From positions 4,098,501 through 4,162,500 of the forward strand of contig CM065879.1 in NCBI GenBank assembly GCA_033439255.1: DNA of 64,000 bases, written 5' to 3'. Below, one piece after another: positions 3,452 to 34,260 of the stretch. The stretch's first letter is position 1. Each line of letters starts with the position of its first letter. The notes beneath the pieces are model-generated. The model saw only the letters and a program-made list of their open reading frames with translations, made no database searches and had not been told where the DNA came from. Source of the stretch: Hericium rajendrae. Lineage: Eukaryota; Basidiomycota; Agaricomycetes; Russulales; Hericiaceae. The position numbers and the translations under genes are program-made.

Positions 3452-3904
3452 ATTCGATCGGTCCAGCATATGTCAAAAGGAGCGTAGCGTAAATTTGGCC
3501 ACGTATGTATGGACAACAAAAGCGGTGAAACCAGATTAGAGCGAGGAAGGAAAAAACAAGAGCAGGTGAGCGGCTAGATCCGCAGGGCACCGAGCGAGCA
3601 AACAAAGACAGCTTCAACAGCTTTCGTTGCCACCGCCGTTGCCGTTGTCACCGTCGTCGACGTCGACAGCGCGTCCTCCTCCCTTGACCCAGGCCGCCCC
3701 GACGCACCCGACGCCGCCCAAAACGGCATCACAGCGCACGGCATCAGGGCGTATTGTTCAGCTTGAAACCATCGACCCATCACGCCGTCATTTCCCATTT
3801 CGGCCCGCCTCACTCCCACATCCACCTCCCTTCCCCCAGTATAGCACTGCTGCCCAGCATACCGCCGCCCCGTCGCTAGGCTTCGTGCACTGACCGCGCC
3901 GGCC

Positions 3905-6283
3905 ATGTCCTACAGCAACCAGCTCTCCGCGACGGCGCTCACGCCCTCGCGACCCGCGCCCCAGGCGCCCATGCGAACGAACTCGACCAGTACCGCTTCA
4001 CCCGCCTTCCTCTCGCCCTCGGCCGGCTCGTCCTACGCCACGTCCTACTCTGGCATCGGGGCCACGCCCAACCGCGGGGCGGGCGAGGGCGCGGGCGCGG
4101 GCGGGACGGGGCGCCCGCTGCGCTCGGGCTATGTGGGCTTCAAGGAGGATGCGTTCGCGAGCTGGATATGGAGGGAGAAGTTCCTGACGCTCACCGAGCA
4201 GGCGCTGGAGATACATAAGAACGAGGTGGGTGCTCGTTTTCTGTGCTACGTTCGGTATGGGGGCGTCGGTACTGTGCGCCCGATGGTGCGCGGGCTTGCA
4301 GCTACGCCCTCATCGATCGACTCCTTGACCATGGCCGTTGAACATCCTTGCCAGGGCACACCCGTACAAAATATCATCCGGCTAGGCGACCTCTCCAACA
4401 TAGAACGCACAGACCTCAAACCATATTGTCTCCTTCTCGAGACGAAAGACAAGCGATATTACCTGGCCATGAAAGGCGACGAGGAGCTGTACGGCTGGCA
4501 AGACGATATTTACTCGCGTAGCCCGCTGAGCGGCGTGAGCAATCCCACGAACTTTGTGCACAAGGTGCACGTCGGCTTCGATCCCTTATCCGGAGCGTTT
4601 ACGGTTCGTCTCTTAGGTCTATCCTGTCCGTTGGAAACTCACGCTGTATCTGTAACACCCAGGGTATGCCAGACCAGTGGTCAAAACTGCTCACGAAATC
4701 AGCCATCACGCGCGAGGACTACCAGCGCGACCCGCAGGCCGTGCTCGATGTCCTCGAATTCTACACGGACCACCAGAAGCGCGAGATGGAGGAGATGGGG
4801 TTGTCGCACTCGACACGGATAGGTGACAAGGGAAGCGGCACTTCCACCCGTCAGTTCTCCCTTTCCCTCCTCTCGCCCTCTCTAACCAACACGTGTCACT
4901 TCCAGCCCGCTTCAACGCCGGCACGGGTCTCGCAGGTGCAGGCGGCATGTCCAAAATCTCGCCGCTCGGCCCCGCCGACGCACGTGCAGCAGTCCAGAAT
5001 GGCGAGCCCAATCTCGCCGCGTCTGCACGGAGCGCAGCGGACTACGTCAATGGTGCCTCCCGTTCCTACCCCTCTGTGACTCTGCGATCTAACGGGCATA
5101 TATTGCAGGTTCAGCCTCAAGCGCGTCGCTCCCGAGCCTGACGCCCTCGCGCGCCGCGCCACCACGCCCGTTACTCACCGGCACGCGGCCCGCGCCGGGC
5201 CAGCCCAAGCCGCCGTTGCCTGATCACACTCCGTCGTCCGCAGACCTCCGTGCGCGAGCGCGCGCAGCTGGTCCTGGCAGCGATGGCGCGGTGAAGCCGC
5301 CGCCAGAGAAGATGCCCCCGCGCGCGGACTCGCTCTCGCCGGCGCAGCGCGAGCGCGAGCAGCGGGAACGTGAGCGGGAAGAGCGGGATCGAAGGGATCG
5401 TGAGAAGGAGCGCGAGCGGGATCGTGAGAGGGAACAGCGGGACAGGGAGCGCGAGCGGGAGAGGGAGCAGCGGGAGAGGGAGCGGGAAGACCGGCCTCCA
5501 GCCAAGTCTGCGCCGACGAGCGCGAGCGCGCCGGGCGCGGCTGGTGCGACGGCGGGCCCGCCGCCCGTGAAGCCCCTGCAGCCGAAGAAGGCGCCTGCGC
5601 CCGCGGCGGACGACAGTGTCGCGGCGGCGGCGGCGGCGCTGCAGAAGCCGAAGCCGAAGGAGGTCGAGAAGCGGATCAGCACGATGACGGAGGTGCAGAT
5701 CATGGAGAAGCTGCGGAGCGTCGTCACGCCGGAAGACCCGAAGCTGATTTACAGCAAAATCAAGAAGATCGGGCAGGGGTGAGTGTGTTTGGTGTGTTGG
5801 GTGGTTTGTGGGCTGATTGGGTTGGGTTCTAGCGCGTCGGGCCATGTGTATGTTGCGAAGACGTTGGCGACGGGTAAGAAGGTCGCGATCAAGGAGATGG
5901 ACCTGGCGAATCAGCCGCGGAAGGAGTCGCAGATCCCGACCCTCCGCAACGCGGTCTTCCTCGGCGACGTCCTCACCAAGCGCGACTGCACGCGCCTGCA
6001 GTCGCTCGCCGCGAACATCAACATGTACGGCGCGATCGAGACGCAGCGTGCAGTCTCGTACTTCGCGATCCCCAGCATCGCGGAGGACCTCACTTTCGTC
6101 GCGACGCAGAAGGACATCCTGTGCCCGCTGGCGAGGGCGTGGTCGACGTCCAGCTGCTCCGCAACGACCGCAATATCTCCTGTGCCGTTGGCGAAGTCGG
6201 CGAGATCTACAAGCGCTCTGGCGGGCTCGCGGAGGAGTATTCCGATGCGACTGCGGAGATGCTTGTCGGAGCGTCTCAGGTAA
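3905..6283 (+). CDS. CLA4/PAK-type kinase 5' half fused in frame to LYS2 fragment
   Basis: Exons by splice-site and frame continuity: 3905-4225, 4355-4603, 4663-4822, 4906-5052, 5109-5778, 5833-6283, giving a predicted 665 residues. Exon 1 and exon 2 carry a PH domain ([39 protein letters not shown]). A CRIB motif follows ([14 protein letters not shown]), then a Pro/Ala linker and a long Arg-Glu-rich charged tract. The kinase domain begins normally ([20 protein letters not shown]) but stops after NQPRKE at 5926 and continues as LYS2-derived sequence. HRD, DFG and APE motifs are absent, so it cannot be an active kinase. Family knowledge: Cla4-type kinases bind Cdc42-GTP through CRIB and membrane lipids through PH to control polarity and septation. 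An expressed product could still bind Cdc42; that is inference. It could equally be a non-functional duplicate. Confidence 0.8.
5927..6282 (+). pseudogene. LYS2 (alpha-aminoadipate reductase) adenylation-domain fragment
   Basis: Residues encoded from 5927 resemble the adenylation domain of L-2-aminoadipate reductase: [31 protein letters not shown], then VATQKDIL. In the next frame from about 6121 come [24 protein letters not shown] and SGGLAEEY. Two extra bases near 6120 shift the frame, and the family's usual VVN before RNDR is missing. About 120 residues of a roughly 1,400-residue enzyme of fungal lysine synthesis are present. The junction with the kinase lies in AAGGAGTCGCA, a string also present 30 bases downstream in the complete kinase copy, so joining by microhomology is plausible. 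The fragment is not functional as a reductase. Confidence 0.8.
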
Positions 6284-7681
6284 TGCGAGTGAGAGCTCGT
6301 GGACATCCCGCCGCCGTAGATCTGCGAGAACGGCGAGGTCGACGATGTTCCCGTGCGTTGCGAATGATGCCCTGCACGATAATTATGTTAGAGTACATGG
6401 ACTGTGCAGTAGAGTCGTCAGAAATACAATTCTGTTGTCTGCTCATGCGAAGACTGCCTAAGTTGGAAGGCGGCAAAGCTTGACGCGCCGCCCAGTTTGA
6501 TCAAGTCGCCGCGGCTTGCCAGTGATCAAACGTTCTTGTTCACCGACTCTCACCTCGAGGTCTGGCGTCTGCGTACTGTTGCTTCCACTCGGAATATCAA
6601 CAATGCTGATACGTGATGGTGTATAGGCGTACTGACAAGGCTGCGATGTGTGTACCAGCATCTTTCGTCGCCCGGTGCCTCCCCCGTAACGTACGCGTGC
6701 GCCCGACGCAGTCCCGTAGCCTCACATCTGCCGACATCGACGGCCGAGTCGAGAGCTACTGACGCTCACACTTGCTTTATCCAGGATTTTAAAGCCACGG
6801 AAACGGCCCAATCACAAGGTTTCGCACACGCGACGGCATGCAGAAGACTTATACGAGGTAGATATGCCGTTCCCGACACCCCTGTTCCCGACACTTGGGT
6901 ATTCAGGACGGACGAGGGGGCTGCTCTTGCGCTGCTCAGCAGTCCTGCCGGCAATCGCCTGCCTGGGATCCGTCGCGATCGCGCCTTCACCGCAAGCCTC
7001 GGCGGTGAACTCATGTGCCCGCTTCCATTTACGCGCCGATGTCCCGCTCTTTACAGGGCGCTGGCGGCATTGCGCCATGGCGGCATGTGCCCTGCAGCAC
7101 CGAGCATGCCCCACATTGGTGCTTCCTTCGGCAACCTCAAACCCGCCTTCTTGCATTCCGGACGTCGTTGACCACGGTCTCGGATCAGTCCTTAGCACCC
7201 CGCAGGATTATCGCATTGCAGTGTTCAACACTCTCATGGTGCGACAGCCACCGGGGATCTCCATGCGAACCAGTCCTGTGGCCATAGTCAAGGCGGCCTT
7301 CACGCAGTCTTAGGCAGCGTTGCGCCTGCCGCTTGTCACCCTCAGCGCGCCGAAGTCATCGCGTGCGCGGCGTCGGGAAGACCGCCATGTCTTCGGCTGC
7401 CGCACGACCCCGCCTCTCGTGAATCGGCATTGGCAGCCGTCGTCATCTCAGATCGACTGCATGCCGGGGACTGCACCCCACCCTCTCCACGACGCAGTCC
7501 GCCGCTGGTCTGAGCAGTGCGCGCTCGAGTCAGCGAAAGCCCGCCCTCCGCAGGATCACGATCCAGCCGCGACGACATGAAGTCGTCACCAATGGATGCC
7601 CGGGTGCCCTGGATGTCCCGCCTCAGTGTCTGCATGGCATGTCCGGCCGCATCCACTCCCTCCCGCCTACCGAATGCGATG
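6284..7681. other. No recognisable gene
   Basis: The GC-rich open frames here lack conserved motifs and convincing splice structure. The sequence directly after the LYS2 fragment (6284-6480) shows no match to the kinase 3' half. Nothing else could be supported. Confidence 0.5.
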
Positions 7682-8163
7682 ACATGGTAAGTAATTATTG
7701 TACTGAAGTACTATCCTTCATTCCGTCTCCGCTCACATTTCAGCATGGCGGATGCAGGCATGTCAAGGACAGAACATCAGTGCGAAAATGACGAAGGTAA
7801 GCAACATCATTATTTACGAAGAAACGGTAGGACTCACTCACCATCCAGCCACGAACATCGCGATCAACATCATCCGCATCTTTAGCATGTGTCGCATCAC
7901 TGTGAATGATGCACCGGACGATGCGGTAAGTAATCACTGTGCTGTGTACCATCCTTCTTCCATCCCCGTTCATCCGAGATGCTTCAGGAATCAGCATGCC
8001 AGATGCAGCCCTGTCAAGAAAGGAGCATCAATACGAGAATGACAAAGGTAAGCGACATTATCATTTACAACAGAACGATGGGACTCACCAATCCGGCCGC
8101 AAACGTCGTGACCGACGTCATCTGCATGTTCAGCGGCGTCGCCTCGCTGATCGAGTGCCGGTA
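7682..8163 (+). repeat. Tandemly duplicated exon/intron-like pair
   Basis: Four intron-like blocks start GTAAGT or GTAAGC at about 7687, 7797, 7924 and 8046. Blocks 1 and 3 resemble each other, as do blocks 2 and 4 (GTAAGC.ACAT.ATTATTTAC then GACTCACC). The exon-like pieces between them are related too, each containing ATGC.GGCATGTCAAG-like text and ending ATGAC.AAG before a GTAAGC donor. A unit of about 240 bp (exon, intron, exon, intron) has thus been duplicated in tandem. The exon pieces do not keep one reading frame, so a protein is doubtful. A further plausible intron with donor GTGAGT lies at 8644-8699. Confidence 0.5.
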
Positions 8164-9798
8164 GGTACTGCAATGCAGGCACAAGCCTGGTTTGGCAGCG
8201 CGGCGCGGACATGCGACAGAAAGGTGAGCCAGTGATCTTTGAAACGACCTTGGTCAACTTACCCAACATAATATTTTCAGGATCTGTGTTCCGGTTGCCA
8301 TGCCCGGACGTCTTGTGTATATACGAGACTTTGCGATGTCGATGAGAGTGCCATGGCCATGCAACTGCAATGCTCTCACCTTCATCGCATCGCTCAGTCC
8401 CCACTGACGTCCAGTGCCGTATGTACCCAATATCTCGGTCAATGCCCACGCGCACCTACTGCGTGCATGCAACATTGTCGCTGCCCTTCACATGGTTGGG
8501 TATCAGTGAAAGTCTACCACTGAAATGTTCACGTACTTTGCACGTGAAATCTGTATGGAACCCACATCTGCACGTCTTCGCCCTCACGAACTCCATCCAC
8601 CCTGTTCCACGGACGAGGATCTTTGCTCGCGAAATACTGGAAGGTGAGTCATTTCTCAGTCTGGATCTCATATCAAGCGCACTGACCTTCGTAACTGTAG
8701 CTGCGCACCATGGAGTCTCACAAAGGAGGCTACAGACAAACACGGCCAATGGTGCTAGCAGAATGGGTGCATGGCAGGCATATCGCGAGCAGCGAGGAGA
8801 GGGAGTTTGGTGATACAACAAGATTCCTACTGCGATGAGGGGGATAGAGAAAGAGGACAGATGGTGCTCATACTGCGGGCAAGAGGACGACTCGGAAGTA
8901 ACGTGGTGAGATCCTTCCCGTTCTAAACTGTGCAAGCTAGCGAGTTTGAAATGCAGAAATTAGGTGATAATGTGTGTCGGCTGCACTACTTCGCCAAGCA
9001 AACTTCAGGCTCCAGGCAGGTGACAATGTGCAATCGAGAAAGAGGGATAGTGTTGGAGAATGGGCCAGTGTGTGCTCAATCCCTGATGATGATATGTGTC
9101 AGATTTACAACAGCAGGCTTATTTCCATGGGGTAGGATTTTGCATGATGCTATTGCTTCTAGTCATGTTGCAGCTGTCTTCGCCGGACACAGCACCTGCG
9201 GTCATTAATTCCGTGAGACTAGCTTTCAGCCGATCATGACATACAACGGAGACAAATGTGAGAATTGATCGTAATTGACTTGTTGGCGGTCGCACGGAGA
9301 TGACCATGTTCTCTGAGCTGAGACCCTTTGTGCTTCGCTTTCCACTTGAGCCGGCAGATTTGAGATGCTCTTCGTACTTGAATGTCATCTTGTTGCTGTT
9401 GACACTGGCAACAAGTTTCAGCTCCTCACAGAAGAACCTCTAGCATCTCTCCCTCTGTATCTACTATTTAAATAGTGGTCAGTGAGAATGAAAAATCAGT
9501 ATCCTCAGCCTGGACATGCTTCCGAGTCAAGAGCCCTCCAATCCCAAGTTTCTGGGAAAGCAATGTAGCAGCGGGCAGACCGAGCCGAGCAATAATCGTA
9601 AGTGACTGCTTCCTACGACGGTCATCAGCCAGTTGACTGACAGATTGACAGGCCACTTAGCGGCAACGGCAAAGCTGACAGACACCGAGCTGCGTTCTCG
9701 GCTTCGGTGGCTTATTCGCGTCTCCTTGGGTGTGCACATACTTTGATCGCTTCCGTGTTTCATACTGGAATTGATTGCTGACCAATATCTCTTGCTAG
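8164..9798. other. Low-information stretch
   Basis: I find no conserved protein motif. Possible upstream exons of the gene ending at 10169 may lie between 9480 and 9700, but splice sites and frame could not be settled. Confidence 0.4.
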
Positions 9799-10169
9799 TT
9801 CGTGAATCTGGAGATCTGCGTGCGAAGATGTCATGGGCAAATTATGAGCAGAAGGTTGTCCTGGAGTACGGGGTGGACATTGTCGGATGGCCCGTTCACG
9901 TTGCGCCGTTTCAAGATCTCAGCAAAACTTCGCTCGCACATGGCCCCCTAGTGAGGCTCGTCCGAAGTTGGGAGCTCGGTCACACGCGGTTCAGGAAACT
10001 GACCGAGGATGAAATCCTCGCACGACGGGAGGAGCACAAGAAGCTCACAAAGCCAGCGAGAGCAACGCGCGTAGACTCCGGAGAGCGACGGCCGCATTGT
10101 CAGTACAAGAAGCGCAAGCGCGCAACGAAGACGGATCGTTGGGTGGAAGCCGACAATGAATTTTATTAG
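9799..10169 (+). CDS. 3' exon of an uncharacterised Agaricomycete-type protein
   Basis: An open frame follows a good acceptor (branch GCTGAC, then CTTGCTAG ending at 9798) and runs to a stop at 10169. The product contains SWANYEQKVVLEYGVDIVGWP, then a Ser/Leu stretch and ELGHTRFRKLTEDE, ending in a Lys/Arg-rich tail. As I recall it, a W..Y...V...YG....GWP block occurs at the C-terminus of a large uncharacterised family in mushroom-forming fungi, often near transposons. The 5' exons are not resolved. No function can be given. Confidence 0.45.
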
Positions 10170-10522
10170 CTTAGAATTATCGTAGAGATATAGATTTGAA
10201 GTTTGACACTCTCACTGCATACGAAAATCTGCCGATGTCAAAGCCAAAGTCAGGTATCTCCGGAGAACAGTAGTTAGCGGGGAAAATATTGTACCGTAAC
10301 CGAAACGAGTGTTGCGTGGTAGACGTAAGGCGGGCCGCAAGAATATCCGCATCGAGATGCGGATGATTCGGGGATGGGGACACGGAGGAAGGGTTGTGCC
10401 CCATAACCTCCGTGCAGTACATAAACCCCCCAGGCATTTGCCCGCGCCCGTCTCTCATTGTATCCCTTTGTTCGTGAAGTCGATATTTTGATGCTCGCAG
10501 CGTGCGCCGATCTACATCTCCA

Positions 10523-13015
10523 GTATGTGTTCTTCCTACTCTGCTGCCCGTCTCGTTCTAATCTTGCACGCAGAGACCACTCCGATGGCGGCTCGAGCTG
10601 CAGCGCAATACTGAGACCCCATGTCCCTGCACCTCCCAGTGGATCTCGGCGATCCCCAGCTGCTCGCACTGTCGTCCCCGCTCTCATTGGAGTCGGGCTC
10701 GCAGTGAGCAGCGAGTGGATCGCCGACATCGCACGGGAAGGCGCTTAGACGGACTGGCGTGGATGGCATGACTGCGTGCATCGCGATGGATGACAGGCAT
10801 TTTCTGGTGCTCAACGCTGGCGGCCTCAGAACGATCAGTTTTCTTTTCGTGAGTTCTGCATCGACAGCCTCGATTCCCAAGTGCTCACCTTACATCCTAG
10901 TACGATCGACGGGCTGTCTCGACAGTACCGGCATCCTGGAGACATCCTTCGCCATTCGGAGGCATCTTTGACATAAGAACTACAGGGCTTCGGCCCCGCG
11001 GCGAGCAACGGGCCCGCCACTAGGACGGCAATCGCGTCCCGTCCTCGGCGCTGGGGCCTTTATTGACGGACGGACTACGGCGCCTGCAGGTCAACAATGT
11101 GCTGGGAGAGGTCGGGCTTCGCTCGTTCTCGCTGTCGTCGCCACAGAGACGTTCCTGGTTCTCCATCAGTGATTGGAGGTCGCAGGATACTTACCTTAAC
11201 GGTATGCAGGCCGTTGTTTTGGGGTGCCGGATTCCGGCGTTTCGCACCCACAACGAGCGAGAAGGTCATTAGACCAATCGCCCACTAGCGCTGACGGTAC
11301 GTCTACGAGCCGGGCGCAAACGACATACGTCGCTGGCGTGTGATGGGCATATCCGCGTGGCAATGAGACATTCTGCATAGGACGGGAAGGGCATCGGTAA
11401 GTACTTCATAACGAGATTGGTCAAGCGAAAACGGCACTCACACGACTCACACCCAGGAAACGACTTTTTCGTCGCCTTTTCCAAGATTCTATGGCCCGCG
11501 CCGAGCGACCTCCGCCTCCATAGGGCACGCTTTCGTAGTCAGCGTCGACGGGACTCCGTCGACGCTGACGGGGCACGCGCTGTAGCCGAGCGAAGTCCGA
11601 TCCTACACGCAGACTGGTTTCCTTCGTCGTGCGGATGTTCTGCGCGGTCTGCGGTGTGTTCCGGTAAATCTTTCTCAAGCCATACTAGCTGAGTCGAAAC
11701 AGTACTCACCTGGCCTTCGGAATCGTCCATTCGCGTCAGTTGGGACAAGAATCCAAGGCTTCGCGGCCAGCGGAGGGCGCGTCAAAAGGCTGATATCTCG
11801 TCAGCCTCGACGGGGCACCATCGACACTGATTTCGAGTGCGCGCCATGCCAGAGACCACGTGCCAGTAGATCTATGGGCACTTTTTTTGCGTCTGTGAAC
11901 TATTCTGCAAGGCAAGACATGCATTCTTGTAAGTATTTCGCAGCGAAATTAGTCAAGATAATCTGGTACTCACCAAACACTTAGGATAAGCGATTCTTGT
12001 CGACTTTTCTGCAAGATTCAATGGCCCGCGCCGAGCGGCGAGCGCGCCCTTAGCACAAGTCTTCGGAGGCAGCGTCGACGGGCCTCCGTCGATGGTGACG
12101 GCGTTGGCTGGAGCCGGGCGAAGCCCGGCGCATGCCTTTCTTTTGCAACCATTTTTGATGCATGCGGGGGATCTAGCGCGGTTTCCATTGTCTCGTGGTG
12201 AGCCTTTCTACGTGATATTAGCCGAGGTAATCTAGTACTCACCAGGCCCTTAGGATAAGTGATCCTTGTCGACTTTTCCACAAGGTTCAATGGCCCGCGC
12301 CGAGCGGCGAGCGCGCCCTTAGGACAAGTCTTCGGAGGCAGCATCGACGGAGGTCCGTCGATGCTGATGGCGTTGACTGGAGCTGGGCGAAGCCCGGCGC
12401 AAGCCTTTCACTGCGTACATCCTTCATGCGTCCAAAGAGCACTTTGCGCGCGTCGTGGTGAGTTCTTCAAAGTGATATTAGCCCAATCGAGACCGCACTC
12501 ACTAGGCTTTCAGACACATTAATTTTCGCCGCCTTTCGTTCGGGATTGAACAGCGCGCGCACCGAGCGGGGAGCAGGGCCGTAGGAGAACTCTCCGTAGC
12601 CTCCGTCGATGCTGACGACGCAGGCTGGAGCCGGGCGCAGCCCGGCGTAAGCCATTCGCCCGCGGATTGATTTCACGGATTGTAATGCGATCCAGGAGCT
12701 CTGCGGTGTGTCTCAGTAAGCTCTTGAATGCGAATTTAGCTTAATCGCAATGAGACTCACCTGATCTCGTAAAAACAGGATTTTCTCGCCCAAAATCCAG
12801 AGATTTTGGCCCCGCGGCGAGCGGCGAGCTCTGCCAGAAGGTAGATCAATCGTAGTCGATGTCAGCGGGCTCCGCTGACGTCGACAACGCGACGAGCGCT
12901 GCGCGCAGCATCCGCGTTGTGTTATTCTACGTGGCTATTCGACTTCTGTGAGTGTTTCATGCGACAAATACCTTTGTACATTCACTTATTCACTCGGCTA
13001 TCGTGTAAACGGCAG
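10523..13015 (+). repeat. Tandem modules with intron-like blocks and covarying stem-loops
   Basis: Intron-like blocks with GT..AG ends are predicted at 10523-10573, 10859-10910, 11397-11456, 11664-11739, 11929-11984, 12198-12253, 12458-12513, 12716-12778 and 12948-13015. The central ones are related in sequence (GTRAG, TTAG.C, TACTCACC, CTTAG). The exon-like pieces between them (169-213 nt) share GGCCCGCGCCGAGCGGCGAG and two stem-loops. Stem 1 is GTCAGCGTCGACGG with its complement at 11538-11569, again at 12339-12366 and, altered, at 12855-12885. Stem 2 is GCCGGGC-GAA-GCCCGGC at 12113-12129, with variants at 12382-12398 and 12630-12646. Frames are interrupted by stops in most modules, so structured RNA is more likely than protein. 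An inactive repeat array remains possible. Confidence 0.55.
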
Positions 13016-13301
13016 TTTTGTTCTGGATTGCGAAGGTTCGCCAGGGACCAGGGTGTCTCTATGGACCCCCAAGTCGCAAAAATCTGTCCCTCCACCGCTC
13101 CTTCGCCACCCGAGGTTCCATCGCTCGCGCGTTGTCCTCGTATCCCCCGCCACTTTCCGCCTTTTCGCCGCGTCTCGCATAGCGCTCGTTAGTGAGAATG
13201 CGGTGGGCTACGCGAGGACACGTTCTGGCGTCTGAGCGCCGCCTCGTGGTGGTGCTGCAGACTTTCTGCGGCTGCTTCGAGTCGCGCGGGACGCCGGAGG
13301 A

Positions 13302-15407
13302 CGTCATCGTCAAGTTTGACGCTTGCCGTTGGTGTTCTGTCGATAGGTGAGTACGCAGCGAATACCTAAAGCATGCGCGAACTGACCTCTTTGGACAGAT
13401 ATGCTCTCGGCGTCCACATCCCGGCTCCCCGCGCACTCGTCCTCGACCGTCACCTTCACGCTTCTCCGGCTTCCGGAGCGCGATGACGGAGGGCGTCATC
13501 GTCAAGTACGGCGCTCGTCGCCGCGTGTTCCGCCGCCGCTCCGACTCCTTCGCGCCGGACGCCTTCCTGTCGCGTCCTCCCGGTGCGCCGTGAATGGGAC
13601 AGCCGAAACCTGCGCCTGTCGCCAAGAAGCCTACGACCCCTCCACCTCCAGCACGCGCACGAAGGCGGCGGTTCGGCGGCCATCGCAGTCGGTACCTGTC
13701 ATTCGCCGCAACGACGATGAGAATATCAGTCGACCGAAGCGCGAAATTCATCCCCCTCCTCCTGAAGATCTTCCGTAGGCAGATGCGCCGAAGACGGGGG
13801 TCGGAAGAAGGATATCTTGAGCGAGCAGCTTCGTTTCTGCGGCAAGATCTTGGATCAGCTCGGGAGGAAACAACACCAGAACATCGTGCTGCCTGTTGAC
13901 CGGATGAAGCTTCAGATTCCTGACTATCCCAGGATCATCAAGCGAGCCATGGATCTGTCGACGATTCGCAGAAAGCTCGAGAACGGCGAATATCCGAACC
14001 CGGACCGCTTCCGCGACGACTTCAAGCTCATCATCTCCAACTGCTTCACATACAATGCGCTGCTGGTGAAGCAAGCCGTCATCTTTTCGGATGCGTCGTC
14101 GCCTCGCGTGGTCAACGTCCGGTCCGCTGCGCTGCATCGCGAGGACGAGGAGCGCCCGGAAATCGTCTTCGCGGCTCTCGACCGCAGTCCCGCCTTTCGC
14201 GCTGCACGCTATCCGGGATTGCGCGCAGCGTCACCGATGGCGCGTTCTCGACGCGCCCTCCCGAAGTTGCTAGCTGCGGCTCGTACTGGTCCGTATCGCC
14301 GACAGCGCGGCCTCGTCCTGGTCCCCGTCGCGTCGCGTCTCCGGTGCCCGTAGCGCCAGGACGAGGGCGTCATCGTCAAGTTCGACGACGTTCAGGCCGT
14401 CGTGCCTCTTCGGAAGGACGTCATCGTCAAGTTACGGGACGTGCGGGCCCTGTGCGCTCGGTGAGTCTCCTGTTCGTTCGGATTTGAGGCTATCTACTCA
14501 CCTCGCGCCTTTCGCGTCCAGTCGCAACTCCAACCTGACTGCCGTTGGCCTCTCGCCCATCGCCGTTGTCCCGCCTCGCCGACGGGCGTCATCGTCAAGT
14601 TACAGGGTATGCGGGCGGGCTGTGTGCTCCTGGTGAGTAATGTGCGCGTTCGGATTCGGAGATAGCGACTTACTGAACTGCAGGTACGCGTCGTTGACTC
14701 CGGCACTCGGTGGTGCGCGCCATGCCGCGTTCGGCTGATGTCTTCCGCTGCCGACATCCCGCGCCTGGCTTCCTTCCGCCTGGCGCATCGGCGGCGCGTC
14801 ATCGTCAAGTTACGGCGCTGCGAATTGCGCGTCCCTGGTGAGTACGGTGCGCTGTGCCAAGTCGGAGATAAGTACTCACTGATTTGCAATCTTCAGATGC
14901 GAGGCGGCGCGTCGATATTTGCTCCGTTCGGGATGACGTCGGGGGACGGAGTCAGTGGTGGTACGCGTGTCCGGCCGTCACAATCCCCTGCCGCCCGTCC
15001 CGCGACCGCCGATCGTGAAGTTGGGGAGCATGAACGCGTTGATCCGCGCGTGTTCGCGTCGACGGCAGGGGCGTCATCGTCAAGTTATGGCGGTGGGATC
15101 GGGGCGGACTGTATGCACTCGGTGAGTGTCCTGCTCGTTCGACTTCGGAGCTATCTACTCACGGATGTGCAGGACGCGGACGCGGCGTGAGTGGATTTCT
15201 GCGCGCGTGGATGGCCGTCGCAATCCCGCGCCCGACTGTCCCGCCTGCCTCGGAACCGCCGATCGTCAGGCTCGGGATTGTGGGTGCGTTGATTCCCGTG
15301 TGTTCGCATTGACGGCAGGGGCGTCATCATCAAGTTACGGCGCTGGGATTGCTCGGTGAGTCTGCTGCTCGTTCGAATTCAGAGCTATGGACTCACGGAC
15401 GTGCAGA
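13302..15407 (+). repeat. Array of modules carrying CGTCATCGTCAAGTT
   Basis: The motif or close variants start at 13302, 13494, 14369, 14419, 14587, 14797, 15072 and 15322. Most are followed within about 50 bases by an intron-like block: GTGAGT, then GTTCG-rich text, then GAG.TAT.TACTCAC, then CAG, 50-63 nt long (13348-13400, about 14461-14521, 14634-14684, 14838-14896, 15121-15171, 15356-15407). Exon-like parts share CAATCCC..CCCGACTGTCCCGCC. The motif could encode G-V-I-V-K, but the surrounding frames are not conserved. A BDF1 fragment lies between the second and third copies. The module is related in design, not in exon sequence, to the array at 10.5-13.0 kb. Confidence 0.6.
13590..14075 (+). 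pseudogene. BDF1/BET bromodomain fragment
   Basis: The linker and second bromodomain of a fungal BET protein can be read across frames. One frame gives VPVIRRNDDENISRPKREIH and PPPPEDLP; a later frame gives LSEQLRFCGKIL, RKQHQ, IPDYPRIIKRAMDLSTIRRK, NGEYP and DDFKLIISNCFTYN. BET proteins bind acetylated histones, and IPDYP..IK.PMDLSTI with NCF.YN marks the ZA loop and the acetyl-lysine-binding Asn. A stop (TAG near 13776, where the family has Tyr) and a frame change separate the parts, and the domain ends abruptly after CFTYN at about 14075. This is a captured or duplicated piece of a host gene. The complete BDF1 gene is not in this window. Confidence 0.75.
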
Positions 15408-16081
15408 AGGCAGATGCGGCGTGCTGCACAGTGGGGAAGGTGTCGGAACCCGTAGCGCGGCTTGCGTCAGTCGATTTCTGGGCGGCATGGAAGGGCGCCG
15501 GGGGAGCTCGTCGTGGGGCCTTGGTGCGTCCGGCCGCCGTTATTGTGCGCCCGACCCGTTCCGGAAGGAGTCGACGGTGCCCTCCCGCGCAGCCTTGACG
15601 CGCGCATCCAATCCCGCGCCCGACTGTCCTGCCCGCCTCGCGACCGCTGGTCGAAAAGTTCGGGATCGTGGCGATGGGACTGACATCGGCCGTTGCGTGC
15701 TCGGAAGTCGATTTCTGGGTCGTCCAGAAGGTCGTCGGGGGTGAGAGATTCTGAGCCCGTGTCGCGTCGCCGCACCTTGCGAATCGCAGATTTTCCGAGA
15801 ACTAGAGGCAACGGGGAAGGGCGGTGTGTCGGAGAGCTGAAAACGGCGCGAAAAAGAGCGGGGAAAGAAGTCAGCATGAGCGCAAGTCGCAGTCCGAACG
15901 ACCCAAGCGAAAAGCGAGCGCACTGAGTGAGAACTGAACGCACGGGACTGGGAGGGAGTGGCGTCCAAGGGCGGTGTTTGTAGAAAGTAGAATATACGAT
16001 AAGTCTCAACATTGCCCTCGGTGTGTTCGAACGACACCGCGAGCGAGACTTTGGCGGGAGAGCGGCGGAGCAAAAAAGTAG
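15408..16081. other. Non-genic stretch upstream of the second kinase copy
   Basis: Long GC-rich frames occur on the minus strand but show no motif and no splice structure. The sequence shared with the first kinase copy begins at ATTCGATCGGTCCA (16082, matching 3452), with about 65 bp fewer than the first copy before the start codon. Confidence 0.5.
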
Positions 16082-16469
16082 ATTCGATCGGTCCAATCAG
16101 GGCCATGCATGTACAGCAGTGCTAAGCGAGGAAGGAAAAAACCTGAGCAGGTGAGCGGCTAGATCCGCAGGGCACTGAGCGAGCAAACAAAGACAGCTTC
16201 ACCAGCTCTCGTTGCCACCGCCGTTGCCGTTGTCACCGTCGTCGACGTCGACAGCGCGTCCTTCCCTCGCACCCGACGCCGCCCAAAACGGCATCACAGC
16301 GCACGGCATCAGGGCGTATTGTTCAGCTTGAAACCATCGACCCATCACGCCGTCATTTCCCATTTCGGCCCGCCTCACTCCCACATCCACCTCCCTTCCC
16401 CCAGTATAGCACTGCTGCCCAGCATACCGCCGCCCCGTCGCTAGGCTTCGTGCACTGACCGCGCCGGCC

Positions 16470-19379
16470 ATGTCCTACAGCAACCAGCTCTCCGCGACGG
16501 CGCTCACGCCCTCGCGACCCGCGCCCCAGGCGCCCATGCGAACGAACTCGACCAGTACCGCTTCACCCGCCTTCCTCTCGCCCTCGGCCGGCTCGTCCTA
16601 CGCCACGTCCTACTCTGGAATCGGGGCCACGCCCAACCGCGGGGCGGGCGAGGGCGCGGGCGCGGGCGGGACGGGGCGCCCGCTGCGCTCGGGCTATGTG
16701 GGCTTCAAGGAGGATGCGTTCGCGAGCTGGATATGGAGGGAGAAGTTCCTGACGCTCACCGAGCAGGCGCTGGAGATACATAAGAACGAGGTGGGTGCTC
16801 GTTTGCTGCTGTTTACGCTTCGGGATGGGGGCGTCGGCGCTGTGAACCCGATGGTGCGCGGGTTTGAGCTACGCCCTCATCGATCGACTCCTTGACCATG
16901 GCCGTTGAACATCCTTGCCAGGGCACACCCGTACAAAATATCATCCGGCTAGGCGACCTCTCCAACATAGAACGTACAGACCTCAAACCATATTGTCTCC
17001 TTCTCGAGACGAAAGACAAGCGATATTACCTTGCGATGAAAGGCGACGAGGAGCTGTACGGCTGGCAAGACGATATCTACTCGCGTAGCCCGCTGAGCGG
17101 CGTGAGCAATCCCACAAACTTCGTGCACAAGGTGCACGTCGGCTTCGATCCCTTATCCGGAGCGTTTACGGTTCGTCTCTTAGGTCTATCCTGTCCGTTG
17201 GAAACTCACGTTGTATCTGTAACACCCAGGGTATGCCCGACCAGTGGTCAAAACTGCTCACGAAATCAGCCATCACGCGCGAGGACTACCAGCGCGACCC
17301 GCAGGCCGTGCTCGATGTCCTCGAATTCTACACGGACCACCAGAAGCGCGAGATGGAGGAGATGGGGCTGTCGCACTCGACACGGATAGGTGACAAGGGA
17401 AGCGGCACTTCCACCCGTCAGTTCTCCCTTTCCCTCCTCTCGCCCTCTCTAACCAACGTGTCACTTCCAGCGCGCTTCAACGCCGGCACGGGTCTCGCAG
17501 GTGCAGGCGGCATGTCCAAAATCTCGCCGCTCGGCCCCGCCGACGCACGTGCAGCAGGCCAGAATGGCGAGCCCAATCTCGCCGCGTCCGCGCGGAGCGC
17601 AGCGGACTACGTCAATGGTGCCTCCCCTTCCTACCCCTCTGTGACTCTGCGATCTAACGGGCATATATTGACAGGTTCAGCCTCAAGCGCGTCGCTCCCG
17701 AGCCTGACGCCCTCGCGCGCCGCGCCGCCACGCCCGCTACTTACCGGCACGCGGCCCGCGCCGGGCCAGCCCAAGCCGCCGTTGCCTGATCACACTCCGT
17801 CGTCCGCAGACCTCCGTGCGCGAGCGCGCGCAGCTGGTCCTGGCAGCGATGGCGCGGTGAAGCCGCCGCCGGAGAAGATGCCCCCGCGCGCGGACTCGCT
17901 CTCGCCGGCGCAGCGCGAGCGCGAGCAGCGGGAACGCGAGCGGGAAGAGCGGGATCGAAGGGATCGTGAGAGGGAGCGCGAACGGGATCGTGAGAGGGAG
18001 CAGCGCGATCGGGAGCGCGAGCGGGAGAGGGAGCAGCGGGGAGCGATCGGAGCGGGAAGAGCGGCCCCCGGCCAAGTCTGCGCCGACGAGCGCGAACGCG
18101 CCGGGCGCGGCTGGCGCGACGGCGGGCCCGCCGCCGGTGAAGCCGCTGCAGCCGAAGAAGGCGCCTGCGCCTGCGGCGGACGACAGTGTCGCGGCGGCGG
18201 CGGCGGCGCTGGAGAAGCCGAAGCCGAAGGAGGTCGAGAAGCGGATCAGCACGATGACGGAGGTGCAGATTATGGAGAAGCTGCGGAGCGTCGTCACGCC
18301 GGAAGACCCGAAGCTGATTTACAGCAAGATCAAGAAGATCGGGCAGGGGTGAGTGTGTTTGGTGTGTTCGGGTGGTATGTGGGCTGATTGGGTTGGGTTC
18401 TAGCGCGTCGGGCCATGTGTATGTCGCGAAGACGTTGGCGACGGGCAAGAAGGTCGCGATCAAGGAGATGGACCTGGCGAACCAGCCGCGGAAGGAGCTT
18501 ATTGTGAATGAGATCCTCGTTATGAAGGAGTCGCACCACCCGAATATCGTGAACTTCCTCAACTCGTATCTCGTCAAGAGCAATGAGCTCTGGGTCGTCA
18601 TGGAGTTCATGGAGGGCGGCGCCCTCACGGATATCATAGAGAACAACACATTAGAGGAGGATCAGATCGCTTGCATTTCGAATGAGGTGCGTCGGCTCGC
18701 GCTATGTTCGTCTCGCCGGTTGTGCTTATACCGTCGGCGCAGACGTGCAAAGGCCTGGGACATTTACATAGCCAGCACATCATCCACCGTGATATCAAAT
18801 CTGATAACGTTCTTCTCGACGCGCAAGGTCGCGTCAAGATCAGTGCGTCTAGTCCAACCTTACTTCCATTTTCGTGTCGCTGACCGCCTTACCACGTCCA
18901 GCCGATTTCGGTTTTTGCGCAAAGCTCTCTGACCAGAAGTCGAAGCGCGCGACCATGGTGGGCACGCCGTACTGGATGGCGCCGGAGGTCGTCAAGCAGA
19001 AGGAGTACGGCGCGAAGGTCGACATCTGGTCGCTGGGCATCATGGCGATCGAGATGATCGAGCAGGAGCCGCCGTATCTCGATGAAGAGCCGTTAAAGGC
19101 GTTGTACCTCATCGCGACGAATGGAACGCCGACGCTGAAGAAGCCCGAGGCGTTGTCGAAGGAATTGAAGGCGTTTTTGAGCGTGTGTCTCTGTGTGGAC
19201 GTGAAGAGCAGAGCGACGGCGGATGAGCTGCTTGAGGTATGTCATTGCCAGCGCCTTCTTGCTTGAAAAGATTGATGCTGACTCTGTTATGATGTCAGCA
19301 CGACTTCTTGAAGAAGACGTGCGCATTGTCTGGTCTGGCCCCGCTGCTTCGCTTCCGGACACAGAAGCAAGGCTCATGA
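16470..19379 (+). CDS. CLA4: CLA4-type PAK kinase (PH, CRIB, complete kinase domain)
   Basis: Nine exons are predicted: 16470-16790, 16922-17170, 17230-17389, 17471-17617, 17675-18348, 18404-18686, 18743-18842, 18902-19236, 19299-19379. All junctions keep frame except within exon 5, where a run of four Gs at 18038-18041 (three fit the frame) adds one base in the Arg-Glu tract. Discounting it, the protein is about 782 residues: PH domain, CRIB ([14 protein letters not shown]), charged linker, then kinase with [42 protein letters not shown], and ending HDFLKKTC...QKQGS. All catalytic motifs are present. Cla4 kinases are Cdc42 effectors in polarity, septins and cytokinesis. The extra G may be a real lesion or a sequence error. 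Length and domain order are normal for the family. Confidence 0.88.
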
Positions 19380-20634: not shown

Positions 20635-22739
20635 GATACAGGTGGTGAGAGGAGGGGATGAGCAAAGGAGAAAGGAGCGACAGGAAGCCGAACTGTACTG
20701 TGTGTCGCAACTTTTCTCACGGCGGTTATGTAGGTTCCTCGCGATTGTCTCGTCCTCTTCCCCTTCCCAGCCTCGCACTGGCATCTCGACTGTTTCTCCA
20801 TGTGCACCATATATGCATCCCATACCACGTCGAGCGCAAACAGTCTTCTGCACGGCGTCTCGGGACGGCTTAAACCGCGAACGCTCCTCACAGGCAGCAT
20901 TCCTGCCAGTGCTCCTGCACCTCCTCTTGTTCTCTCTCGCGATGACGAATGAAATATCACACATGGCGGCTCGCGAACGATCTCCCCGACCGACCATCGG
21001 GCGCAGAACCTTCTACTTAGGTCCTCATCCCGGACGAGACTGACTAGAAACTTGTCGAACATCCTCCAGCTCTCCCCTCACCGGCCGCCAACGCCGACGT
21101 GCTCAGGGACAAGGCATCGCCTCCCGTGCGCCAATTCCCCCACAGAAGGATCCTTTCCGTCAGTGCATCATGCATCTGCCCCATTCCCCAGACGCTTGCC
21201 GTGCCGCCGCGCCACGGGCACATCTTCCGAATCCGTGTAGAAGGTGCTTACGGCCGCGCCGCCTCTGCGGCGGGCGTTCCCGCCGAATTGCACGAAGGGG
21301 CGCCCACGCGCGCGAGATATCAGCGTACATGCACGCGGGCTCGCGCTCGGGGTCGTGCTTGGCAGAGCGCGCGCGCAAGCAGTGCATGGACGTGGATATC
21401 TGGTTCGTGGAGAATTCGAAGGTGACGGTGCCGCGGAGCGAGGACGAGGTGGACTATGCAGCGAACGTGGATCGCGTTGTTTAGGTGCGTTTGTTCTATT
21501 GCTGGGGTTGTATGGAAGAAATGAGGTGTGATGCTATGCACAGGAAATGGAGCTGTCGTCGTTCAGAATGCTGGAGAAGTTCATGCGTGGGCGTGCCGCG
21601 TTGCGTGTGGTGCGAGCTATCGGGCACGCGAGATCACTGTCCGCGCAGCGAAGTCGAGCGCCATAGCAATTATGGTGAGGTCTTCGCTGCAGCTCATGTG
21701 GCCACGCAGTGTGTTTGTGTACTCATAGTGCACGCATTCGTCATGCTGCACCTCAGCAGATCCGTGCGCCATACGAATACCTCTAGACGCATAGCTCGTG
21801 CATTTCTAGTGTGCTCAGATACTGAGTGGGAAGTGGAATAGATGACCGCGAGCGATCATTGCACGTGGAGGACAGAGGAGCTCTGGAGTTATGGGCACTC
21901 GGTAACAGGTCCCACTTCTGTAGCGAAGTATTCATCTAGGTGTCTTGACTAGAGCCTATCACAATTTTTATCAATGGATCTTATGATTTCATTAACAGCA
22001 GTCGTGGGACTGTCATCATGATGCCATGGTGAGCTGCATGGGATCTGTATCATACTTCAGATGTCTTCATCTTCGAAGCTTCCGTCAGGTACACACTATT
22101 CGATGTGAAAGCATAATGTATATTCACCTAAGCCCGCGAGTCGGTACGTGGTTTGCGTCCATGCACCGCGTGCGCCTTGATCATCTCAGCCTGCGTCCAC
22201 TTCAATCAGCTTATAAGAGCACGTCGCTACTCGTACAGAGGCCTCAAAGCCTCACGTTCTGTTCACGACCCTCGCACATCTTCAGGTGAGCTGGCTCGTT
22301 TTCGCCTGGCATGCCTTCTGATCATGACCCTCGCATTCCTTCAGCGTGATTGTTTTCAAGCACCCGCCCTCCCTCCCTATGTATTATTATTATTACTGCC
22401 TCTATAAATATACATTAGCCTTGTGTATATCTCATGGACGGGATCCTTTCACTGCGGCGTTGCTGCGGCACGACAATACATTCACCTTTCCCGGGCCGTC
22501 CGTTCTGCGTGTGTGCGGCGGTGTCGCGACATTCCTATTTGCTTTCCACGTCTGCCTCTCTCACGGAGCTCCATCCGCGTTGATGCGCAAGACGATTAAG
22601 CGCGTTTAAACCCATTCTCCTCAGGGTTAAACCCGTTTTTGGCGACATTGGCGATCTTGTACGCGAGTTTGCCCAGCGGGTTACCCAGCGGTTCAAACGT
22701 GGTTTGACTGGCACTGTGAACGGCCCTAATGGCATGCTG
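20635..22739. other. No supported gene
   Basis: Open frames at 21050-21500 and 22020-22600 lack recognisable motifs. I see no RNA gene or element ends. The sequence 22600-22740 adjoins the kinase remnant but does not match the intact copies. Confidence 0.4.
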
Positions 22740-23728
22740 GTTCAGAGACGAGAGGAGGAAAAGAGAGAACTGACAGGTGGAAGTGCCGCTTCCCTTGTCG
22801 CATATCCCTGTCGAGTGCGACAGCCTCATCTCCTCCATCTTGCGCTTCTGTTGATCCATGTAGAATTCAAGGACGTCGTGGAATTCGAAGACATCGGGCA
22901 CGGCCTGCGGATCGCGCTGGTAGTCCTTGATGGCTGATTCCGTGATCAGCTTTGACCACTGGTCGGGCATACCCTGGGCATAACAGATGCAACGTGAGTT
23001 TCCAACAGACAAGATAGATCTCAGAGACGAACCGTAAACGCTCCGGACACGGGATCGAAGCCGACGTGCACGTTATGTACAAAGTTCGTGGGGTTGCTCA
23101 CGCCGCTCAACGGGCTACGCGAGTAGATATCGTCTTGCCAGCCGTACAGCTCCTCGTCGCCTTTCATCGCAAGGTGATATCGCTTGTCTTTCGTCTCGAG
23201 AAGAAGGCAGTATAGTTTGAGGTCTGTACGTTCTATGTTGGAGAGGTCGCCTAGCCGTATTATATTTTGTACGGGTGTGCCCTGGCAAGGATGTTCAACG
23301 GCCATGGTCAAGGAGTCGATCGATGAGGGCGTAGCACCATCGCGCTCACAATGCTGATACCCCCATCCCCAACGCAGGATCAGACAGCACAGTAAACGAG
23401 CACCCACCTCGTTCTTATGTATCTCCAGCGCCTGCTCGGTGAGTGTCAGGAACTTCTCCCTCCATATCCAGCTCGCGAGCGCATCCTCCTTGAAGCCCAC
23501 ATAGCCCGAGCGCAGCGGGCGCCCCGTCTCGCCCGCGCCCGCGCCCTCGCCCACCCCACGGTTGGGCGTGGCCTCAATGCCAGAATAGGACGTGGCGTAG
23601 GACGAGCCGGCCGAGGGCGAGAGGAAGGCGGATGAAGTGGTACCGATCGAGTTCGTTCGCATGGGCGCCTGGGGCGCGGGTCGCGAGGGCGTGAGCGCCG
23701 TCGCGGAGAGCTGGTTGCTGTAGGACAT
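22740..23728 (-). pseudogene. 5' remnant of CLA4-type kinase (third copy)
   Basis: On the minus strand, exon 1 (23728-23408), exon 2 (23281-23033) and part of exon 3 (from 22973) match the other two copies, with identical exon 1 and 2 lengths (321 and 249 nt). PH and CRIB sequences remain readable, with substitutions such as HNVHVGFD for HKVHVGFD. In exon 3 an 18-bp stretch is duplicated (22863-22880 and 22881-22898) and a codon is lost near AIKDYQ. Similarity ends near 22740, and no linker or kinase domain follows. It shares an upstream block with the first copy but not with the second. Not functional. Confidence 0.85.
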
Positions 23729-25748
23729 GGCCGACGCGGTCAGTGCACGAAGCCTAGCGACGGGGCGGCGGTGTACTGGGGGAAGGAGGTGGATGTGGGA
23801 GGGAAGCGCGCCGAAATGGGAAATGACGGCGTGATGGGTCGATGGTTTCAGGCTAACCCCGTGCGAGCTCGCATCGATGAATGGAAACTCGACCCCAACA
23901 TGAACCTACACAGCTCTACTCGCTGCAACCAACAGCCTGGGAGCATCGAAGCTGTCCGAGGACGCCAGCTGGCAGCCCCGGAATTGGATTCAGTCCTCCG
24001 TCTCCTCCATCCATCTTCTGTCAACTTCGCAATACCAATGTGTCTGATCGGCCAGAAACCGACCAACTCTGATCGGCCACAGAAGCTAGCAGATGATCTC
24101 AGATGATGAGTCGATGCATGATCATCGTCGTGCGCACTTTCATGCGTCGCGAAGCGGCAAGTCTGCGACGGATCAATTAACGTGTGGATACCTAAATGAA
24201 CATTTTACGTCTCGTCGACATGCAGTGCAGGTCCTGCAGATAAAGACGCGCGTGTGTAAGTGAACATAAGCTCAGAAGTGGCCTTGACATAAGTACTGGC
24301 CGTAGGGATAGATAATGAAGCGCTTAAAAGCCACAACCGGTAGATTCGGCTTGAATGAGTGAAGCAGAGCTTGATGCGTCGATGTCGACTCCAGGAAGCG
24401 ATGTCAATCACCATACTGTAATAGTGAAAGCTTGTAATGGTCGGCTTGAAGAGGTCGAGGGATGAATTTTCATGAAACTGTTGAGCCACTTTGATGGACG
24501 TTGGATGGACGTCATATAACTACAAGACGTACATACTTACGGAATGGACGTCGTTTGAACAAGATCAGACGGCGAAGCCGTGTGAAGCGAGAAATGAGAT
24601 GATGCGATGGAACATGCCGTCGACGGTATTCCTCGGGCAATTTGGAGGCGTCGTATCGTCCTATTCAGAATGTAGAGATGCTCCTCGTTGTGGCCCAGAT
24701 TCGTCAAGGCCCGGCTGGGTCATAGATATGGAATGGATAAATGGGCAAGGTCACTGCAAGCTCAGACGATGAGGCCGCATGGAGCGAGAGGCACCGGTCG
24801 GATAATTCGGAGCCTTCGTTTTATCTTCCTGTTACAGAGCCGTCGACGGCCTCCTGTGTGGTCACCTACATGGGTTCAGGATGTAGGCACTGGGTGGTGC
24901 TAGTCCATGCCGGAGGGTCAACGAGGGATGGAAAAGGAAGATAATTTCAGGCCGAAAATATGCCAATGGTATGCATAAGCGACAGAAATATGATAAAAAA
25001 CAATTTGCAGAAGCAACACATCAGCACATCCACAAAGAATAAGCGAGCAATTGACCCATTTACTCACTTGTACATGGACCACTTCTTTAGGGACGGTGAT
25101 GACCTCCGATAGGTATGCAAGCGGAAAGGTATCCCGAGCACGTAGTCCTTCCTGCAGCGAGCAAGATTTCGGAGCAGATGTAGTAGAAATAGTTGCATCA
25201 AGGGCGCTGAGAAATTCACCCATGAGTTATGACTGCTCGAGCCATGTGGCCAGAACGGTCCAAGTTGCAGGAAGCCAAGGACGGGTAGAGTTGGGGTATA
25301 GTTGAACTTGTATGTAAAGGCGATGTCAGGCTGCCTAAACTCGAACCGTAGGTTCGAACCAGTATGGGAGGAGGAAGGACGCGACACTTCACTGTCGCGC
25401 TTCCCTCAAGTGCGAGATCCCAAGGATAGCGGATACCTACTATCCTGGAATCAAAGCACCGGGTGGGGGGTGGGTGCTGAAAAGGACGGGAGTGCTGACG
25501 GTACGAGACGAAGAGATGAGGACGTCCGAGTTTCATCAGTAGAACAGGCGAGTCCTTGAAGCGTCTTGCAAGAGGCTCAAGAGCCCAAGCACGTTCAAGG
25601 ACTCTTATGTTCTGGATAATTGCGATCAAGCTTGAACGCACTTTTCGAGCGCTTGCAAGAGCTGTCAAGACATGTCTTTCCAAATCCGGAAGAGCACTAA
25701 CACGGCAGTTGCAGGCCCTTGAGGGCTCTTGAGGGCTCTTGAAGGCAC
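23729..25748. other. Flank of third kinase copy and unannotated stretch
   Basis: Bases 23729-24250 continue the duplicated upstream region, inverted relative to about 3003-3345 and the 5' region of the first copy. From 24250 to 25748 I find no gene. At 25700-25750 the sequence repeats CTTGAGGGCT several times just before the insertion of element D0. Confidence 0.5.
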
Positions 25749-31700: not shown

Positions 31701-32397
31701 CCGGGACCTGTGCCGGGCCCGTGCGTGGGATGCAGGAGGCTGAAATGCGGCGCAGAGGCCGTGACAATGCAGCAGCCCTGCACGCCGGAGACGCGAGGCT
31801 GGCTGGCGATGTTGGCAGATTGGCGATGTTGGCGGATTGGCGATGTTGGCGGATTGGCGACGTTGGCAGATTGGTGACGTCAGCTGGCTGGCGACGTCGG
31901 TGTGCTGGCGACGTCGGTGTGCTGGTGACGTTGGCGGGCTGGCGACACGGCACGCCAGCATGGTGCAGTAACCGTGCGCGCGAGGAGGCATCGGGCTGCA
32001 ACACGACTGCGCACGGCCATGGGCGACATGCGCGCATGCGCACCTGTCCCACTGGCTGCGCGCACGGACCACGACGGGGTCGCGTGCAACACGTCGGACC
32101 CTGTGCGGGATGGGGAGGCCGCGCACAGGGTGGCTGGCCCATGCGCTGGCCAGCAATGTTGGATACGGGACCAGGGGCCATGCGGGAAGGGCAGAGCCTG
32201 TGGACAAGGTGGCGGGCTCACGTGCACATCGTCCGCATGATGTGCGTGCGCCAGGGCATGGTCATGGTCATTGGAGACGGCGCGCTGGGCGCTCGTGACA
32301 TGACGGCAAGGCGGCGAGGTCGAAGGAGGGTGGGATGATGCAGGAGGGATGGCAGAAGGATGCGAGGGGGAGTGAAGGCACGGGAGGACGAAAGAAG

Positions 32398-33804: not shown

Positions 33805-34260
33805 TTGAGAGACAATATTTAGTTTGAAAACAGCATTATATTCTCAATGATACATAGACTACAATATATACACTACTAGAGAAGAAAGCGAAACTAAAAA
33901 GCAAAGACTACCCTATGTGCTCGGCCTCGCGCGCACCGCAGAGTGTGCCGAAAAATGTGAGCCTGCGAGTGCCGCAGGACGGGTGATGGGAGGCTGCGCA
34001 GCGACGGGAGGTGTGCTATGGGAGGTACAGTGGGCATGCACACCTCTCGCAGCCTCGTCGCGCTGCACCGTGCATTGCATCTCGCCCTTGCCCTTGCCCG
34101 GCGCGACGTCGCCCACGGACGTCGAGATGTATGCTGCACTGCATGTGTAGTCGTTGCGCCTGCGGCAGCCGTTCGTGCACATCCATATCAAGGAGAAAAA
34201 TGCGGCGGGCGAGGAGCACCAAAGAGTGTCAAATGCATCCCATGCTCGAGATCCGCGCGC
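33805..34260. other. Unassigned stretch between D0 and LTR fragment
   Basis: The first 100 bases are AT-rich, then GC-rich to 34260. A minus-strand frame (about 34190-33913) contains several cysteines, but I do not recognise it. A partial exon of a host gene cut by the insertions is possible. Confidence 0.35.

Follow-up and report, generated by a model that had tools for sequence, protein, structure and literature searches.

Recurrent tandem arrays of covarying hairpin modules with intron-like blocks in Hericium rajendrae: candidate spliced noncoding RNAs

Background

Repeated RNA units, such as those of NORAD and the Xist A-repeat, act as several binding sites for one protein. The arrays described here resemble them in being built of predicted repeated RNA units, which in the fungus stand in regular exon-intron tandem; we know of no NORAD or Xist A-repeat units that are split by introns in regular tandem, or that belong to a unit found at many loci with gene copies on either side. 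Among Helitron-type rolling-circle elements there are noncoding members and tandem arrays, and some have captured pieces of genes, whereas the conserved parts of the fungal element are structured modules and two motifs, here called V and D. Families of similar short introns are known in fungi as introner-like elements; in the noncoding arrays, by contrast, the repeated unit is an intron together with its exon.

The long noncoding RNA Firre carries a repeating RNA domain (RRD) in 7 of 13 human and 11 of 23 mouse exons, and this repeat, a functional domain of the RNA, is bound by hnRNPU; Firre is one mammalian locus, with local repeats rare elsewhere in the genome (PMC4820808). Both systems would have the same repeat in several exons of a spliced noncoding RNA, the fungal transcript being a predicted one. 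Firre is set apart from the fungal arrays, which occur at at least 21 loci and have strongly covarying hairpins, a second motif of 21 nt and flanking gene duplications, and at most the arrays may work by analogy with Firre. Nothing equivalent to them was recognised in the literature covered, in which subscription papers were thinly represented, and this is no proof that they are unpublished.

Results and discussion

A six-module array in the window

The window is a stretch of 64,000 nt (C2:4098501-4162500) from the H. rajendrae genome (46.8 Mb, 19 contigs). A sequence-only reading of this DNA had placed tandem modules within positions 10523-13015. By profile search, the array proper occupies 11397-12909 on the plus strand and comprises six modules of about 260 nt, in line with the reading's count of at least five at about 260 bp; the left part of its interval fell away, since 10523-11396 held no clear module and a single weak model match (10989-11065, E 0.12). 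Each module opens with an intron-like block of 55-66 nt, which starts as a GTRAGT-type sequence and closes in CTCAC...YAG, followed by about 200 nt with a conserved box (GGCCCGCGCCGAGCGGC) and two hairpins, stem 1 and stem 2.

Module 1 (11397-11663) has its intron-like block at 11397-11456, the box at 11493-11509 and stem 1 at 11540-11567 (model score 77 bits), and is followed by the degenerate module 2 (11664-11928; 77 bits with nhmmer, 21.3 bits with the model). Modules 3 (11929-12197; 113.7 bits) and 4 (12198-12457; 114.7 bits) are 86% identical over 212 nt, with intron-like blocks at 11929-11984 and 12198-12253, boxes at 12023-12039 and 12292-12308, stem 1 at about 12070-12097 and at 12339-12366, and stem 2 at 12113-12129 and 12382-12398, respectively. 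Module 5 (12458-12715; 68.4 bits) has an intron-like block at 12458-12513 and stem 2 at 12630-12646, its stem 1 being without the 5' arm, and the partial module 6 (12716-12909) has an intron-like block at 12716-12778 and a model match of 61.1 bits at 12805-12923. All six are on the plus strand.

The two copies of stem 1 compared in the sequence-only reading (11540-11567 and 12339-12366) are exactly as quoted there, and the change from G-C to A-T on both sides is real. Its observation that stem 2 varies in the loop and keeps its pairing also holds, with exact cores at 12116, 12385 and 12633 and loops GAA, GAA and GCA. As a structured RNA the array family looks new, in agreement with that reading's failure to recognise a known RNA class: Rfam 15 gave no match in the window, and in three further loci (L029, L030 and L013, E <= 1) matched two bacterial sRNA models at 22.2 and 20.9 bits, under their cut-offs of 45 and 40.

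A genome-wide family of arrays

A single array had been noticed at the outset; it is one of many, and lies inside a larger unit. Module arrays were read at 21 loci on ten contigs of the genome, namely in the window and at C2 4.163M; C1 0.871M, 4.93-4.99M and 5.043M; C4 0.516M and 3.15-3.2M; C7 0.352M and 0.417M; C8 0.842M, 2.08-2.10M and 2.278M; C9 0.743M and 1.529M; C10 1.301M; C11 0.90M, 0.956M, 1.483M and 1.774M; C13 0.252M; and C16 0.948M. With 11400-12900 as a DNA query, 77 genome matches were obtained, self included, and the exact 17-base box gave at least 100 (16 forward, 84 reverse) against 0 for a reversed control. An nhmmer profile built from the window modules reached 170 matches at E <= 1e-4 after three iterations, in a searched set made up of the window and about 209 kb of loci from the same genome that had been chosen for matching. 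Eleven stretches were read later; seven held modules and four, picked by motif V only (L036-L039), held none. Exact searches gave zero matches in viral contigs for the box and V patterns, and zero in prokaryote contigs for the box pattern.

The edge of a second element lies at the right end of the window (62238-63998, minus strand), with four V motifs between 62238 and 63825, two of them with 2 mismatches, and an array tail that runs on past the window (L048). Some units contain a divergent second array (C4 3.15-3.2M and C8 0.842M). In blastn comparisons of the window with one C1 unit and one C4 unit, module stretches were all that the three had in common, and the C1 and C4 units additionally shared a stretch of about 560 nt.

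A recurrent unit with motifs V and D

The recurrent unit has the order array, repeated 21-nt motif V, end motif D, host gene. In the window and at other loci, copies of motif V follow the arrays downstream in the same orientation. Eight copies of GGCGTCATCGTCAAGT with at most one mismatch were located between 13300 and 15335 of the window on the plus strand (at 13300, 13492, 14366, 14417, 14585, 14795, 15070 and 15320); with up to two mismatches there were 12, against 0.17 expected. Genome-wide, the pattern GGNGTCATCGTCAAGTWC occurred 88 times and its reversed control 0 times, and the loci read contained 156 copies of V, of which 93 were nonredundant. In the 21-nt consensus, CAAGGGCGTCATCGTCAAGTW, the core, four bases before it and one after it are clearly conserved, beyond which conservation declines towards background; the copies were chosen by a 16-base core, so that conservation of the core itself is by construction. 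V is found on the other strand too in the C1 and C4 units, and also occurs without modules nearby (C2:0.309M, C3:0.882M, C5:0.118M and C10:1.029M).

Repeated amid unrelated flanks, V looks like a putative small-RNA target or protein site. A small RNA from a V/anti-V hairpin was considered and rejected, as the genome contains no exact CATCGTCAAGT hairpin with a gap of 4-34 nt. The window copies hinted that V might form the 3' end of spliced exons, which was likewise rejected: donors within 100 nt downstream were not enriched overall (16 of 93 copies, against 11.9 in shuffled sequences, maximum 20).

Motif D is terminal, is about 190 nt long, and in the window lies at 15888-16063 on the plus strand, directly upstream of the duplicated gene segment; its best conserved part is CATTTGCCCTCG/GTATGTTCGAAC. 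The window copy found D at six other loci, one of them, on C1, weakly (E 0.007), and a profile of seven seeds, the window copy included, also matches the C4 units. From the end of D to the duplicated gene segment there are 62 nt in the window and about 50 nt at the C13 locus.

Between two V motifs of the window element lies a bromodomain gene fragment (13766-14350; Pfam E 2.3e-17), as if captured, and it was the sole Pfam match among four ORFs of the element (5927-16124).

Intron signals and coding potential

Removal of near-duplicates reduced 116 full modules to 69, of which 67 have GT at the module start, 66 of those as GTRAG[TC]. In 60 of the 69 a CTNAY branch point is followed by YAG, and the resulting introns measure 55-66 nt in 53 of these 60; in a separate count, branch point and YAG were found in 58 of 69 modules, against a shuffled mean of 13.0 and maximum of 20 (30 shuffles). 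The YAG begins 8 or 9 nt past the branch-point motif in 38 modules. By these signals (GT donor, CTNAY, YAG and their usual spacing), the predicted introns match the fungal spliceosomal type. The intron block also carries a fairly conserved ATTAGCCGAG, the reverse complement of which resembles a branch point and which has CCGAG in common with the exon box.

Exon lengths fall about equally into the three phases (22, 20 and 18 of 60 modulo 3) and the most open frame is open in 20 of 60 exons; the exons therefore look non-coding. It is very improbable that the modules are instead the repeated exons of a protein-coding tandem domain gene, possibly read from the opposite strand. Such a gene would fit the two plus frames that are open in 18 and 20 of 60 exons, against about 9 when shuffled, a surplus that probably stems from the GC-rich conserved boxes; it would also fit the intron-like signals of the minus strand (see below) and the length differences of stem 1, which are often 3 or 9 nt, but differences of 1 nt occur there as well. 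Coding on either strand was rejected on the exon phases and because every one of the six frames of the window array contains stops, as the interrupted frames of the sequence-only reading had it. No protein frame was conserved among the copies in the fungus's own genome, and the coding alternative is already largely refuted.

Covariation of the predicted structure

The window and 14 fetched loci supplied 55 nonredundant modules, of which 51, aligned by sequence, form alignment A1; L012:1621-1733, L020:7706-7895, L028:4695-4824 and L007:2040-2151 were omitted. RNAalifold on A1 returned stem 2 and the box helix only; manual placement supplied stem 1, lower stem 2 and the pairs of the pseudoknot. 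Under this structure 85.8% of cells pair in A1, with 140 double-change cells against 57.7 in shuffles, and none of 500 shuffles reached any of the five covariation measures.

As the structure was partly hand-placed and fitted to A1, it was tested on modules fetched later. Alignment A3 comprised 56 of 69 model matches from 12 such loci and one window row as reference, aligned by sequence alone; omitted were the 12 lowest matches (<=51.4 bits), of which three run against the array strand, and, inadvertently, L031:3437-3571 (56.1 bits). With the reference row, 85.8% of cells pair in A3, the rows of which lean somewhat towards the structure through having been found with model R1, and there were 151 double changes against 59.2 in shuffles (0 of 500). 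The covariation score was 0.259 against 0.141 when shuffled (0 of 500) and at most 0.103 with partners slid; sliding the partners by 1-3 columns lowered pairing to 30-47%. Two of the five measures were not above shuffles in A3 (pairs with double change, reached by 130 of 500; further pair types, by 167 of 500). Without the reference row, the 56 modules gave 85.7% paired cells and 146 double changes against 56.9 (0 of 500). Because certain A3 modules closely resemble A1 rows, with identities of up to 97%, a stricter count used 31 that are less than 80% identical to every A1 row and less than 85% to each other; 84.6% of their cells pair, with 90 double changes against 33.7 (maximum 51, 0 of 500). 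The hairpins thus covary beyond shuffles in independent copies, and the covariation first read from two copies is strong in the 51 modules, in those fetched later, and also with similar ones removed.

By helix, pairing in A3 is 94-98% in the box, 79-84% in stem 1, 95% in upper stem 2 and 60% in lower stem 2, a helix that is weak overall (60-63%). The box pair at columns 8-15 is GC in 33, CG in 17 and UG in 1 of the 51 A1 rows, with none unpaired, and GC in 41, CG in 11, AU in 1 and unpaired in 4 of the 57 A3 rows. In an unguided mutual-information ranking (67 modules, plain alignment), the box pair came 2nd and two stem 2 pairs 1st and 8th, with little of stem 1, the length of which varies. 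When the paired columns were left out in building a tree of 107 modules, the tree required a minimum of 18 changes at pair 8-15, of 19 and 12 at two stem 2 pairs (19 at pair 112-126) and of 5-9 at seven of the 13 stem 1 pairs, counts that could be inflated by gene conversion between modules. The box probably holds a small pseudoknot, in which GG/CC crosses CCGC/GCGG.

The arrays might also be decayed debris of a mobile element or gene, left from a once functional structured RNA repeat that has lost its transcription and its use, and similar through tandem duplication and gene conversion. Degenerate modules exist, such as window module 2 and low-scoring ones elsewhere, and the tandem units on C1 and C4 are about 83-99% identical and recently duplicated, as that view would have it. 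Neutral decay would, however, erode pairing, yet about 85% of cells pair in both alignments despite the divergence between the window, C1 and C4, and we regard decay as quite unlikely.

Strand, and RNA or DNA

Among stem mismatches in A1, G-T outnumbered A-C by 92 to 67 (p 0.057), where independent columns would give 131 and 106. Inside the hairpins the counts were 17 against 7 and 3 against 0, and in repeats 4 against 5 (A1) and 8 against 3 (A3). There is no clear excess of G-T over A-C, and the RNA nature and strand are therefore not proven by it. Donor at the conserved ACTCACC, branch point and YAG occur together on the minus strand too, in 46 of 69 modules (4.2 when shuffled), with the first YAG scattered; on the plus strand the corresponding set, its donor at the start of the module, occurs in 58 (5.6 when shuffled). 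Folding z-scores of 10 chosen modules were alike on both strands (-1.1 to -5.6 on plus, -1.1 to -5.3 on minus). The plus strand is preferred because intron length, the favoured acceptor position, V and D agree on it.

The lack of a clear wobble excess would suit hairpins that act as DNA, serving a gene-duplicating or mobile element as sites of recombination, replication or binding. They would form cruciforms or single-strand hairpins, with arms kept complementary by template switching, and the intron look would be incidental. In 98 of 107 modules the loop of stem 2 reads GNA, and GCGNAGC is known as an unusually stable single-stranded DNA hairpin; the position of the arrays between duplicated gene copies at most loci checked points the same way. 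Such a role would leave unexplained why 58 of 69 modules, against 13 when shuffled, have donor, branch point and acceptor, the last at a favoured distance. Pair 8-15, moreover, varies between GC, CG, UG and AU within a 2-bp helix, which we judge too short for arm correction and which therefore speaks against template switching. On this evidence a role as DNA appears rather unlikely.

On balance we favour the arrays as spliced noncoding RNA genes with tandem structured exons, inferring transcription, splicing and strand from the features above. Transcription would begin upstream of the array, in the array's own (plus) orientation, and removal of introns of about 56-60 nt would join exons of about 200 nt into a long RNA. 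Every exon would then present the box with its small pseudoknot and two hairpins, the second capped by the GNA triloop. Such an RNA would most likely act in a multivalent mode, several copies of one fold binding several copies of one protein or complex, in the manner of known repeat-exon lncRNAs.

Gene duplications around the arrays

In the window, the array is flanked on both sides by the 5' part of a kinase gene of the PAK/CLA4-like type, the two copies lying on the plus strand, 12.6 kb apart. Copy 1 (3540-5926) is truncated, contains the PBD domain, is 96.4% identical to copy 2 (16125-18497) and runs into unrelated sequence; copy 2, the same 5' segment, leads into the kinase gene, with the kinase domain in ORF 18318-18929. 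At 5927-6280 the truncated copy is in frame with an unrelated protein-like stretch without Pfam match, a possible chimeric gene. A third copy of the kinase 5' part, with upstream sequence, is found inverted at 22735-24605 (minus strand) and is more diverged (71-88%).

Two further loci consist of tandem gene segments with the elements as spacers: AA9 segments at C1:4925001-5005000 (the AA9 Pfam score being just at the cut-off) and HMA/E1-E2 ATPase segments at C4:3150001-3200000. Their units are 12-13 kb long and about 83-99% identical, and the duplication there is therefore recent. Six more neighbouring gene regions were searched against the genome, and for five of them another copy lies across the array: fungalysin (14.3 kb off, 94-96%), a DEAD helicase (13.7 kb, 96%), squalene epoxidase (12.8 and 25.4 kb, 87 and 91%), ribose-5-phosphate isomerase (26.4 kb, fragmented, with 92 and 96% in its two main pieces) and the C13 gene region (11.8 kb, 92%). 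The exception, at C8:2.275M (WD40-like by eye, on the opposite strand), has copies at least 70 kb away. The layout gene copy, element, gene copy was thus found at 8 of the 9 loci checked, out of 21. In the distant DEAD helicase and fungalysin copies, similarity extends past the recognised ends of the reading frames. Integration of a circle with a gene fragment, or duplication with an element at the junction, would both fit this layout.

Because the arrays recur in a fixed order with the 21-nt motif, the end motif and a duplicated gene, the predicted spliced RNA may act in cis, in or near its own unit and close to the duplicated gene. It is possible, and we put it forward tentatively, that the units are an undescribed class of element which sits between copies of host genes (kinase, LPMO, heavy-metal ATPase, squalene epoxidase, ribose-5-phosphate isomerase, DEAD helicase and fungalysin) and creates, maintains or regulates their duplication via its predicted RNA; what such elements conserve between loci would be only RNA- or signal-like, namely single or divergent arrays, V arrays and the end motif. 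If transcribed and spliced, the arrays would make up a large recurrent structured RNA family without Rfam match, beside duplicated genes of which several are metabolic. They would then offer a testable system both for the role of structured repeats in long noncoding RNAs and for how some fungi amplify or keep useful gene copies, with the covariation as a source of ready-made compensatory mutants.

A separate repeat-rich block lies further downstream in the window, with long inverted and direct repeats of 96-99% identity at 26501-31703 and 34258-36518, and tandem repeats of 42, 76 and 144 bp at 36702-41361.
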